NCBI GenBank assembly: GCA_002841295.1 | Contig: PHEU01000003.1 | Location: 1 to 64,000 of the forward strand | Length of the DNA stretch: 64,000 bases | Reading direction: 5' to 3' | From: Actinobacteria bacterium HGW-Actinobacteria-6 | GTDB lineage: Bacteria; Actinomycetota; Coriobacteriia; Anaerosomatales; Anaerosomataceae | Shown here: piece by piece, positions 3,141 to 37,716 of the stretch | Layout of the letters: each line of letters opens with the position of its first letter | How positions within the stretch are numbered: the stretch's first letter is position 1 | Translations under genes and position numbers: made by a program | The notes under the pieces: generated by a model | Told to the model about the DNA's origin: nothing | Database searches by the model: none | What the model saw: the letters and a program-made list of their open reading frames with translations, nothing else

Positions 3141-4109
3141 TCAGGTCTGTAGCAGTGCGCTCACACCGCCGTCGCCGGCAGCGCGAATCTCCGCAAGAAT
3201 CTCCGAGGCGCCCATGTCGAGCATGACGTCGACCATCGCCGCGCCGAGCAGTTCCGGCTCAGCCATGGTGCCGGTGAGCGTGTGCTTGAGGAGCGTCACA
3301 CCATCGAGCGTGCCGACGAACGCGTCCATCGTGAGGCCGCCGTCGCCCGTCGGCGTCGCGTACGCGCCGATCGGTACCTGGCAGCCGCCCTCCAGTGAGC
3401 GCATGACGACCCGCTCGGCACTCACGCAGATGAAGGTGACGAGGTCATTGATCTTCGCGCAGACATCCTGCATGAACTCGTCGTCTTCACGAATCTCGAT
3501 GCCGATGGCGCCCTGGCCCACGGCTGGCGTCATCTGCACGGGGTCGATGTAGTGGGTGATGCGATCCGCCCAGCCCATGCGCGTGATACCAGCGCTCGCG
3601 AGGATGACTGCGTCAACCTCACCGTTCTCGGCCTTACGCATGCGCGTGTCGAGGTTGCCACGAACGTCCACGATCTCCAGGTCCGGACGAAGCGCCATGA
3701 CCTGCGAGCGGCGGCGCAGCGACGATGTGCCGAGACGGGCGCCCTGCGGCAGCGTGTCAAGGTCAAAGCCAGCGCCCGAGACGATCGCGTCACGCGGATC
3801 GACCCGCAGTGGCATCGCAGCGATTACGAGTCCTTCGGGAAGCTCGGTGGGAACGTCCTTCATCGAGTGCACACACAGGTCCACCGTGCCGGCCATGAGC
3901 TCGACCTCGAGCTCCTTCGTGAAGAGCCCCTTGCCGCCCACCTTCGCCAGCGGAACGTCGAGGATTTTGTCGCCCGTCGTCTTGATGATCGTGAGCTCCA
4001 CCGGAAGCCCGGTGATCTCTTCAACCTTCGCTTTGATGAATTCCGACTGCCAGAGCGCGAGTTTGCTACCCCGCGTTCCGATCGTCAGTCCAGTCCGCTC
4101 AGCAGCCAA
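3141..4109 (-). CDS. hemC: Hydroxymethylbilane synthase (porphobilinogen deaminase)
   Basis: The 322-aa HemC begins TIGTRGSKLALWQSE and has the cofactor-attachment cysteine in EGGCQVPIGAYA. It polymerises four porphobilinogens into hydroxymethylbilane. The start appears to be TTG (4109), with AGGAGA 5 nt upstream, lying inside the last codons of hemA (11-nt overlap), which implies translational coupling. Length and motifs are normal for the family. Confidence 0.96.
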   Translation of the reverse strand: MAAERTGLTIGTRGSKLALWQSEFIKAKVEEITGLPVELTIIKTTGDKILDVPLAKVGGKGLFTKELEVELMAGTVDLCVHSMKDVPTELPEGLVIAAMPLRVDPRDAIVSGAGFDLDTLPQGARLGTSSLRRRSQVMALRPDLEIVDVRGNLDTRMRKAENGEVDAVILASAGITRMGWADRITHYIDPVQMTPAVGQGAIGIEIREDDEFMQDVCAKINDLVTFICVSAERVVMRSLEGGCQVPIGAYATPTGDGGLTMDAFVGTLDGVTLLKHTLTGTMAEPELLGAAMVDVMLDMGASEILAEIRAAGDGGVSALLQT

Positions 4110-5463
4110 GCGAATCTCCTATCTCGTTCCCCGTTGTCTCAGACACATCTTTCGCGCGCTTGGTGAGCAGGTCCCGGAGCTTGCCGTGACCACGCCCTTC
4201 GCTCTCATCGAGCCCGTAGAGGTGCCGCGCAGTCTCGATGTACTCGTAGCCATCCTTGGCCTCGGCAGCATGCTTGAGACGCTGCGTTGGACCATGGAGC
4301 ATCTTGTTCACGATGGCGCAGGTAAGCGCATCGATGGTCTGCAGTTCTTTGTCCGAGAGAGACCCGAGCCGCTTGCACGCCTTCTCAAGCTCGGAGCGCC
4401 TGATGATATCCGCGCGTGCCCTGATCGCAGCGACAGTCGGCTGCACCTCAAGCGACTCACGCCAGCGCGAGAACGCCGAGAACTCCTCGTCGATGATCAG
4501 CTCCGCCCGGCGGGCTTCGCGCATGCGCTCTTCAAGGTTGGACTCAACAACACCGCTCAAGTCATCGATGTCGTATAGGAACACGTTGCTGAGATCGTTC
4601 ACGGCAGGCTCGATGTCGCGAGGCACCGCGATGTCGATCAGGAACAATGGACGACCACCGCGACCGCGCATCGACTGTGCAACGTGCTCCTTCGTGATGA
4701 CGTAGTGCGTCGCCGCCGTCGAAGAGATGACGATATCCGCATCGCGCATCCGCTCATAGAGGTCGTCATAGCGGATAGCCTCACCGTTGAAGCGCTCGGC
4801 AAGCTCGCGGGCTCGCTCAAACGTGCGGTTCGCGACGAGCACGCTCTTCACGCCCTGGCTCACCAGGTGCTTCGCAGTGAGCTCGCTCATCTTTCCAGCG
4901 CCGAGGACAAGGATGGTGCGGCCCTCAAGCGTGTCGAAGACCTTCTTCGCAAGCTCTATCGCGGCGTAACTGACGGAGACGGCGTTCTCGCCGATTTCCG
5001 TCTCGGTACGGACGCGCTTGCCAACTTCAAAACTTTGACGGAACAGCTTATTGAAGATCTTGCCGGTCGCTCCGTTGTTGAGCGCGTGGTCGTACGCCTC
5101 TTTCACCTGGCCGAGAATCTGTGCCTCACCAATGACCATTGAATCGAGCGATGCAACGACCCGGAACAGGTGGCGAACAACGCTTTCGCCATGATTGATG
5201 TAGAGAGAGCGGACCAGCTCGTGTCGATCAAGGGAGTGGAACTCGGCCATGAAGTTGATGACCGCGTCGACGCCCTCCTCGACAGAAGCTACCGCGTAGA
5301 TCTCGGTCCGGTTGCACGTCGAAATGATGACCGCCTCGGCCACCGCCGGGTCTGACGTGAGAGCAGCGAGTGCCTCCGCCTGCCGATGCGCAGGGAAGGT
5401 CAGCCGCTCCCGTATCTCGATTGGCGCGGTCTTGTGACTCAGACCGACGAGGATCAAGTGCAT
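4099..5463 (-). CDS. hemA: Glutamyl-tRNA reductase
   Basis: The 454-aa protein reduces glutamyl-tRNA to glutamate-1-semialdehyde, the committed step of C5-pathway tetrapyrrole synthesis. The N-terminus VGLSHKTAPIEIRE, the nucleophile C50 in ISTCNRTEIYA and the Rossmann motif VLGAGKMSELTAKHL are intact. I chose the ATG at 5463 because it gives the family N-terminus; the open frame continues upstream without similarity, into the structured leader. The Shine-Dalgarno (GAAGCGAG) is weak, and an 18-codon upstream ORF overlaps the start, so translation may be coupled or regulated. It is the first gene of the hemA-hemC-cobA/hemD-ahbC operon. Confidence 0.95.
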   Translation of the reverse strand: MHLILVGLSHKTAPIEIRERLTFPAHRQAEALAALTSDPAVAEAVIISTCNRTEIYAVASVEEGVDAVINFMAEFHSLDRHELVRSLYINHGESVVRHLFRVVASLDSMVIGEAQILGQVKEAYDHALNNGATGKIFNKLFRQSFEVGKRVRTETEIGENAVSVSYAAIELAKKVFDTLEGRTILVLGAGKMSELTAKHLVSQGVKSVLVANRTFERARELAERFNGEAIRYDDLYERMRDADIVISSTAATHYVITKEHVAQSMRGRGGRPLFLIDIAVPRDIEPAVNDLSNVFLYDIDDLSGVVESNLEERMREARRAELIIDEEFSAFSRWRESLEVQPTVAAIRARADIIRRSELEKACKRLGSLSDKELQTIDALTCAIVNKMLHGPTQRLKHAAEAKDGYEYIETARHLYGLDESEGRGHGKLRDLLTKRAKDVSETTGNEIGDSLGC

Positions 5464-5510
5464 AAGGCTCGCTTCATTGCGTTGCGGGATTCCATTGCGT
5501 GTGAGGGCAT
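5454..5510 (-). CDS. Candidate 18-aa upstream ORF overlapping the hemA start
   Basis: The frame reads MPSHAMESRNAMKRALCT and stops 10 nt inside hemA. Its ATG is preceded by GGGGGCGACCC, a Shine-Dalgarno-like run that belongs to the 3' arm of a 12-bp leader stem. If translated, it would couple leader folding to hemA expression. Its reality as a peptide is uncertain: a stop codon overlapping a start can arise by chance. Confidence 0.35.
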   Translation of the reverse strand: MPSHAMESRNAMKRALCT

Positions 5511-5514
5511 GGGT

Positions 5515-5610
5515 CGCCCCCGCCGGAGCGGTGCATTGTTGTTCAGGCAAGCAGGCCCGGCGGGGGCGGTATAAAGCGATATAAAACGCACCTCGTGCGC
5601 TTGCCTGAAC
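5515..5610 (-). ncRNA. Structured hemA leader with two interleaved 12-bp stems
   Basis: In transcript order, GTTCAGGCAAGC (5610-5599) pairs perfectly with GCTTGCCTGAAC (5552-5541). CGCCCCCGCCGG (5568-5557) pairs perfectly with CCGGCGGGGGCG (5526-5515). The arms alternate A5'-B5'-A3'-B3', so the stems either exclude one another or form an H-type pseudoknot (loops 30, 4 and 14 nt). A small hairpin CGCAC-GAG-GTGCG lies in the first loop. No T-run follows, so control of translation is likelier than of termination. I do not match it to a known riboswitch class. Confidence 0.6.
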
Positions 5611-5616
5611 GAAATC

Positions 5617-5645
5617 ATCGTAGCATCTTGGAGAGTGCCTGAACA
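5617..5645 (-). promoter_or_regulatory. hemA promoter with GTTCAGGCA repeats
   Basis: The -10 is TACGAT (5617-5622), followed after exactly 6 nt by GTTCAGGCAAGC (5610-5599). A second direct copy, TGTTCAGGCA (5645-5636), covers the weak -35 region (TGTTCA, 17-nt spacer). The same -10/6 nt/GTTCAGGCAAGC layout precedes ccmE, which suggests a shared regulator or a conserved transcript start. Confidence 0.5.
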
Positions 5646-12462: not shown

Positions 12463-13146
12463 CTACTTTTGCGAGTCGTCGAGCGCCACTTCAGTGGCAT
12501 AGAAAACGCCGTTGTCCTCAAGCGATCCGGTGATTACAACCTTCGCGGCATCTTCCACGCCCTGTGGAAGCGCCCCGTCAAACGCGATTGCAACACTTTC
12601 GCCGCCCGAAGCGAGCGTACCCACACTGAAACGCTCGGCGGAACCAGCAGGCATGATGCTGCCGTTGACAACGTATCCAGTGATCTTGACGGTTGCGCTA
12701 CCGAGCGTGCTCTTGAGCAGCGCGTCGATGCTGAGCGCGTCGGTCGCCGAGGCGTACTTCGACGGGCACTGAGTGATGAGCGTCTTAGCGGTGACCGACC
12801 CGTCAGTGTTAACGATGCCGGTGACGATCGCCATGGTGCCGTCGCCGAACGCGCTGGGAATCGGACGATCCCAGGCGATCACGAGGCCCTCGGCGTTGGG
12901 ATCAGCCTCGTCACCAATCGAGAAGGTGAACGGAGAGGCGCCCGGCGTCCATGTGCCCTTGAGCACGGGACCCTGCACTTGAACCTGCTTGCCAACGAGG
13001 CTGGAGTCCGTACGAATCTCGCCGACTGTCTTCTTATACGCGCCGCCTGCGGTGCCGCTCATGCTCGTGCCGAAGATGAGCGCACCAACGACAATGAGGA
13101 CGATAACGGTCACACCGATTAGGCGCTGCCTTGCTCGCTTGTTCAC
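12463..13146 (-). CDS. ccmE: Heme chaperone CcmE, cysteine (CxxxY) type with a second OB-like domain
   Basis: The 227-aa protein has a signal-anchor helix (8-28) and then an OB-like domain whose heme-binding motif is C127-P-S-K-Y131, the CxxxY variant found in archaea and some anaerobes in place of HxxxY. Residues about 143-222 look like a second OB-type repeat (VKITGYVVNG .. VVITGSLEDNGVFYATEV) without Cys or His. Ordinary CcmE is about 150 aa, so the duplication is unusual. It starts at GTG with GAGGGAG upstream and is first in the ccm operon. Confidence 0.85.
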   Translation of the reverse strand: MNKRARQRLIGVTVIVLIVVGALIFGTSMSGTAGGAYKKTVGEIRTDSSLVGKQVQVQGPVLKGTWTPGASPFTFSIGDEADPNAEGLVIAWDRPIPSAFGDGTMAIVTGIVNTDGSVTAKTLITQCPSKYASATDALSIDALLKSTLGSATVKITGYVVNGSIMPAGSAERFSVGTLASGGESVAIAFDGALPQGVEDAAKVVITGSLEDNGVFYATEVALDDSQK

Positions 13147-13193: not shown

Positions 13194-13257
13194 ATGTCGT
13201 GAGTGAGCGCCCTGGGACCGTAGTGGTCCGAGCGGAGAAACACCGCTTGCGTCACCT

Positions 13258-13304
13258 GCTTGCCTGAACACTCGGATAGTAACACCGTGCGAGTTGCCAG
13301 ACAA
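13258..13304 (-). promoter_or_regulatory. ccmE promoter with GTTCAGGCAAGC motif
   Basis: The -35 is TTGTCT (13299-13304), the spacer is 17 nt, the -10 is TACTAT (13276-13281), then come 6 nt and GTTCAGGCAAGC (13269-13258). Distance and motif match those at hemA exactly. The leader between here and ccmE also has hairpins AGCGG-TGTTTCT-CCGCT and GGACC-ACTAC-GGTCC. Nothing else is recognisable in the 205-bp gap. Confidence 0.6.
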
Positions 13305-37499: not shown

Positions 37500-37610
37500 T
37501 TGCCTCCCTTACCCCAGAGATGACGCGACACGGACCCCTTTTGCCGGGGAGCCTCGCATCGCTGTCTCCTTTCCAAAGGGGGAGGCGTCACCGTTTCCAG
37601 TGGCACCCTA
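37500..37610 (-). ncRNA. Candidate riboswitch/attenuator aptamer before fdhA
   Basis: GCCTCCC (37586-37580) pairs with GGGAGGC (37508-37502). Inside are the hairpin CCTTT-GG-AAAGG (37579-37568) and a stem GATGCG/CG-T-CATC carrying CCCC-GGCAAAA-GGGG (37549-37535). Just before it is a GAAA-capped hairpin, CACTG-GAAA-CGGTG (37602-37589), extended by GGTG/CGCC. A terminator follows. A molybdenum- or tungsten-cofactor riboswitch is the natural guess given the gene, but I cannot confirm the class by eye. Confidence 0.55.
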
Positions 37611-37716
37611 TCGGCCTGAGGACCTTGACGCGGCGCGCTGTAGGTCAGGAGGCTCGGAGACGAACGGCCTATTCAATTACCCTGGGGGATCTGCCGGGAC
37701 CCATTGTTCCAGGGAT

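Follow-up and report, generated by a model that had tools for sequence, protein, structure and literature searches.

The window, a stretch of 64,000 nucleotides, carries on its minus strand the gene hemA for glutamyl-tRNA reductase (4099..5463, ATG at 5463; Pfam GlutR_N / GlutR_dimer), and the leader of this gene contains two perfect 12-bp inverted repeats, at 5515-5526/5557-5568 and at 5541-5552/5599-5610. Read along the hemA strand the four arms follow one another as P1a (GTTCAGGCAAGC, 5610-5599), P3a (CGCCCCCGCCGG, 5568-5557), P1b (GCTTGCCTGAAC, 5552-5541) and P3b (CCGGCGGGGGCG, 5526-5515), separated by 30, 4 and 14 nt, and the two interleaved stems described in the first-pass annotation are thus present where it placed them. 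When the surrounding 301 bp were shuffled 2000 times by mononucleotide, just 3 of the shuffles contained a 12-bp inverted repeat within 120 nt, against two such repeats in the real sequence, and the fold of the 96-nt element has a z-score of -3.4 relative to dinucleotide shuffles. P3a and P3b form a hairpin, with pairing and compensatory changes between its arms, whose loop holds a 16-nt anti-seed (CCTGCTTGCCTGAACA, 5540..5555, minus strand) that includes P1b. The first 9 nt of P1a pair with P1b. A third helix, P2, joins P2a (GGTGCGT, 5586..5592, minus) to P2b (ATGCACC, 5530..5536, minus), and the three helices are mutually interleaved.

A predicted promoter with the extended -10 TGCTACGAT (TGn TACGAT; 5617..5625, minus) lies 6 nt upstream of the element. 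From the position of this -10, and from the same layout in relatives, the hemA transcript probably starts at about 5610, which would make P1a its 5' end. A transcript start inside the element had been named in the first-pass annotation as refuting its interpretation, and the start inferred here falls at the 5' edge (5610). The pattern TGnTAnnnT-N4-8-GTTCAGG recurs at hemA and ccmE of relatives, and P1a is the hemA (cis) copy of what we refer to as the seed. An extra GTTCAGGCAC copy in the hemA sense is found at 5635-5644 of the window, upstream of the predicted hemA -10. No terminator was seen after P3 in the window, nor behind P3 in most members of the order, and the hemA leader displayed no platform for sequestering a Shine-Dalgarno (SD) sequence or for termination, nor any match to a known aptamer. 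A search of Rfam 15 (4227 models) returned no family for the element in the window, its flanks or the distant copies, the best score being 13.4 bits for mgtE, against a cut-off of 200 bits. Elsewhere in the window, at 37550-37671 on the minus strand, a molybdenum/tungsten cofactor riboswitch (RF01055) was recognized with 67 bits.

The leader element was found in 57 of 61 genomes of the order in a first search, and in 65 of 69 after a model search was added. Pairing in cis was counted over 60 distinct hemA leader elements of the order. In all 60 of these P3, the outer GC stem, is 100% paired, with compensatory changes at 3 pairs: column pair 64-109 displays a C-G/U-A exchange in half of the leaders, and two further pairs display rarer exchanges. 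P1 is likewise 100% paired over 9 bp in 60/60 leaders, and its changes in cis are of the G.U type only; P1a changes only by C8->T (3) and A9->G (18), such that 21/21 changes over the nine pairs are G.U-compatible. For P2 (GGTGCGT with ACGCACC) 91.9% of cells are paired and 10 cells carry a compensatory change, at 3 pairs, and 0 of 500 shuffles were as high for paired cells or for cells changed on both sides. The complete structure exceeded 500 shuffles and all slid registers, both on paired cells and on covariation, and the unpaired linkers AACAAC and GCAG are conserved as well. Interleaved helices with covariation, the hallmark of an H-type pseudoknot, are found here for P1, P2 and P3 as separate helices. 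A local hairpin (GCGCA/TGCGT) considered in place of P2 was 85% paired and its covariation was not clearly beyond shuffles; it is at most a competing state. All helices passed the alignment of relatives for compensatory changes, which upholds the proposal that the hemA leader folds into a conserved RNA structure; the pseudoknot helices proposed in cis were confirmed, whereas the third helix and the partner mRNAs of the loop had been overlooked.

The function first proposed for this structure did not fare as well. It was suggested that P3b masks the SD of an 18-codon ORF (ATG 5510; 5454-5510, minus) and thereby acts as a translational switch on hemA. The ORF is present and overlaps the hemA ATG at 5463, P3b contains an SD-like run, and a frame of the same length occurs in several close relatives. 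However, the SD-like run is the P3 arm itself, the ATG is lost in one leader (L004), and elsewhere in the order the frame is absent while the hairpin persists. We therefore give this switch next to no credence.

The mRNA of the ccm (cytochrome c maturation) operon has at its +1 end a stretch to which the P3 loop (CCUGCUUGCCUGAAC) is antisense. On the minus strand of the window ccmE, the first gene of this operon (12463..13146; Pfam CcmE PF03100, E 2e-22), is preceded by a predicted promoter with the extended -10 TGTTACTAT (13276..13284), and 6 nt downstream of it lies the seed TGTTCAGGCAAGCAGG (13255..13270), a 16-nt perfect complement of the hemA loop, with the transcript start inferred at 13269. 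A weak 16-nt match to the hemA loop about 7.7 kb away is present in many genomes. Among 57 ccmE leaders of the order, which were collected by CcmE homology and not by motif, GTTCAGG directly follows the -10 in 56. In the lone exception (G040) the hairpin is absent from the hemA leader, and the seed is also absent from the leader of a membrane protein of ∼185 aa that is described below. The ccmE seed at +1 is conserved as strongly as the hemA copy, and over 66 ccmE seeds, for which positions 1-7 belonged to the selection pattern, the differences were G.U-compatible with the loop in 10/10 cases at positions 1-9 and in 27/29 at positions 1-10. Within the order the seed lies about 90-140 nt from the ccmE start codon. 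A conserved seed and the targets complementary to it thus occur together within genomes, as is looked for in small RNAs (sRNAs).

The ccmE leader has a second site, AGCGGTGT (13240..13247, minus), complementary to the hemA loop on its P2b side; P2b accordingly has a complement both in cis and at ccmE. Most ccmE leaders contain GCGGTGC(GT) at this second contact. Pairing within the same genome scored 20.5 against 19.3 for permuted pairs, a difference reached in 3/5000 permutations that ignore relatedness. Moreover, compensatory changes between RNA and target were found in several lineages, as GACGGTGC/GCACCGTC (G009), ACGGTGC/GCACCGT (G019), GCAGTGCGT/ACGCACTGC (G029) and GATTGGTGCGT/ACGCACCAATC (G045). 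The seed and the loop each have their two segments arranged in the order that P1 and P2 have in cis, and with this arrangement both contacts cannot be formed in a plain antiparallel duplex. The cis and trans complexes may consequently share one architecture that is not a simple duplex. Because of the high GC content of the sequences, comparing intermolecular energies with shuffled leaders had little power as a test. Predicted folding of 56 ccmE leaders with the seed bound gave no clear direction for the accessibility of the ccmE SD (23 down, 7 up).

Beyond the order, the model search gave weak matches in three more families (f17, f20 and f21). In f20 (G072, G087, G091, G095) and f17 (G069) the hairpin is again located ahead of hemA; its stems are entirely different there and its loop is unchanged. 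In f17 the cis seed is present at the hemA +1. Across the other families the P3 stem is fully replaced (CCCCCUCGG, CGUCCCUCAUAA, CGCCCRCG, GUCUGUGCUGGC) and the loop core CUUGCCUGAAC stays; the core CTTGCCTGAAC is found in every family that has the hairpin, with one G->A variant in f20. The ccmE +1 seed is present in the hairpin genomes of all three families. Two f20 genomes (G072 and G091) have CUUACCUGAAC as loop and GUUCAGGUA as ccmE seed, such that a G-C pair formed in trans is replaced by A-U, and at the same pair two others (G087 and G095) carry the intermediate G.U. Both hairpin and seed are absent from one f20 genus (g45). Hairpin and seed thus co-occur, and their joint absence is seen in two separate lineages (G040 and g45). 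In four f20 hemA leaders (L326, L328, L329, L330) P3 is preceded by another hairpin, which is closed by GTCA/TGAC and varies in its inner stem.

These distributions bear on the view that the leader is a purely cis-acting, riboswitch-like pseudoknot of P1, P2 and P3 with heme or a precursor as its ligand, and that the other seeds are incidental or degenerate copies. Conservation of all three helices in cis within the order, together with that of the unpaired AACAAC and GCAG linkers, is what such a device would display. However, in f20 no GTTCAGG was seen in cis at hemA and the loop is nevertheless conserved. In f21 (G077, G085, G089) hemA was not found, at genome completeness of 77-90%, and its absence there is probable; the hairpin instead lies behind ccmC-ccmD, with the ccmE seed kept, and is directly followed by a strong intrinsic terminator in G085 and G089 and by none in G077. 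Considering also that the ccmE seed is conserved as it is in hemA, and disappears jointly with the hairpin in G040 and g45, we regard a purely cis function as unlikely.

The 12-mer GTTCAGGCAAGC occurs in six copies in the 2.35-Mb genome and its reversed control in none. The seeds read in the sense of the downstream gene, and the anti-seed always lies in the hairpin loop. The seed is found at the +1 of hemA, of ccmE and, within this genus, of sahH. In addition, a 12-nt seed lies just upstream of the SD of the ∼185-aa single-TM membrane protein, well downstream of its -10; this protein has no Pfam match. It is conserved in relatives (L119:1160-1720 and others), where the seed follows a short GCGC hairpin located close to the inferred start of the transcript. 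The sahH (adenosylhomocysteinase) promoter with GTTCAGG at +1 was seen in L118:1109, L410 and L384, weaker in the last. In three genomes of two families (L411, L188, L170), GTTCAGGCARGC lies at or near the inferred +1 of a gene whose protein begins VSDQDFFFDEDE, and within the genus (L117:1010 and L125) a gene for a cupredoxin-domain protein has upstream of it a promoter-like element with a seed nearby. When distant genomes were searched with TTCAGGYARG, matches were mostly coding, e.g. Ser-Gly-Lys codons; the promoter-anchored pattern worked where this one did not.

Seeds overlapping promoters could also be read as a DNA regulon, in which GTTCAGGCAAGC is a transcription-factor site over the +1 of hemA, ccm and others and the hairpin copy is a second operator. 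The overlap itself favors such a reading, and co-absence of hairpin and seed could reflect loss of the factor. However, one copy is always reversed and forms part of the loop of an RNA hairpin that covaries, the substitutions are almost all of the G.U-tolerant type, and the seed of the ∼185-aa protein lies beside an SD, far from the -10. Because of these features, together with compensation in trans at the second site and the hairpins with terminators in f21, RNA-RNA pairing is favored, and an operator regulon appears improbable to us. A protein that binds loop and seeds as RNA, with complementarity being secondary, would account for a loop core that is nearly invariant, in places beyond the needs of pairing. 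However, loop and seed are complements and not copies of one motif, and they compensate in trans, and we find this explanation very improbable.

We consider it probable, from the sequence comparisons above, that the hemA leader acts in trans by base pairing, either as leader or as sRNA, and thereby couples heme synthesis to cytochrome c maturation. Structure, complementarity, co-occurrence and the compensatory and G.U-compatible changes are comparative observations, from which we infer action in trans in cells. According to this hypothesis the P3 hairpin of the structured leader displays an antisense loop that would pair with transcripts that start with, or have near their SD, GUUCAGGC(A/G)... 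In the order the loop would bind the +1 end of the ccm operon mRNA and contact it again at GCGGUGCGU; it would also pair with the mRNA of the ∼185-aa membrane protein through the 12-nt seed just upstream of its SD and, in cis, with the 5' end of hemA itself through the P1+P2 pseudoknot. The 5' ends of hemA and ccm would then compete for one loop, P1/P2 pairing in cis being set against pairing in trans. Pairing at the extreme 5' end of ccm would presumably change mRNA stability or translation, and heme or a precursor is a plausible controlling signal. We lean towards protection or activation for ccm; for the ∼185-aa protein the position of its seed suggests occlusion. The leader would act as a 5'-UTR-derived sRNA does, and since there is no terminator behind P3 in most members of the order, release of a free sRNA from hemA would need processing there. 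In the family without detectable hemA the hairpin would persist behind the ccm operon.

Our literature search found nothing on the hemA-leader element, nor did it turn up, for this class of Actinomycetota, a regulatory RNA described for either cytochrome c maturation or heme synthesis. By analogy, the element is best placed with trans-acting 5'-leader RNAs such as SreA and Vsr217, outside the Rfam families and with no recognized aptamer. SreA, a SAM-riboswitch RNA of Listeria, acts in trans on prfA by pairing to its distal 5' UTR, about 80 nt upstream of the SD (PMC8079631), and resembles our element as the 5'-leader RNA of a metabolic operon that contacts the distal 5' UTR of another mRNA. 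SreA is, however, a terminated riboswitch, whereas the hemA leader belongs to no recognized riboswitch family, mostly lacks a terminator behind P3, pairs at +1 and is conserved across several families. Vsr217, an sRNA from the malK 5' UTR of Vibrio that is conserved within one genus, acts on its own gene in cis and on a metabolic target in trans (PMC8265627), as proposed here, but differs in sequence, genes and phylum. In the hly-prsA2 pairing of Listeria, mRNA contacts mRNA at the distal 5' UTR of the target, and loss of this contact lowers the level of the target mRNA (PMC8079631); unlike our case the 3' UTR of hly is used, and there is no common hairpin or regulon. By analogy with these systems, the location of seeds at the very 5' end suggests that pairing influences the stability of the mRNA or access to it, as for hly-prsA2, or masks it at long range, as for SreA-prfA. 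RyhB is also a base-pairing RNA that affects cytochrome expression, as a regulator of cytochromes in Shewanella; in E. coli heme synthesis and cytochrome maturation mostly escape it (PMC5826389), and its sequence and context are unrelated.

A wider and more tentative proposal, which we put forward as a possibility and would not yet defend as the likelier case, is a class-wide circuit in which the hemA-leader loop is a shared receptor. The +1 ends of hemA and ccm would compete for it by the same two-part contact in the same order (P1+P2), such that the ratio of the transcripts sets heme supply against cytochrome c maturation, and where hemA was lost the receptor would have persisted at the ccm operon, or been relocated to it, as a separate RNA.

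In conclusion, the contact proposed between the hemA loop and its targets is open to testing by a handful of point mutants, and the free-standing f21 copies offer a natural experiment on how a separate small RNA can arise from a leader. If the pairing acts as we suggest, one hairpin, recognizable across several families, would link the committed step of heme synthesis to a machine that uses heme.
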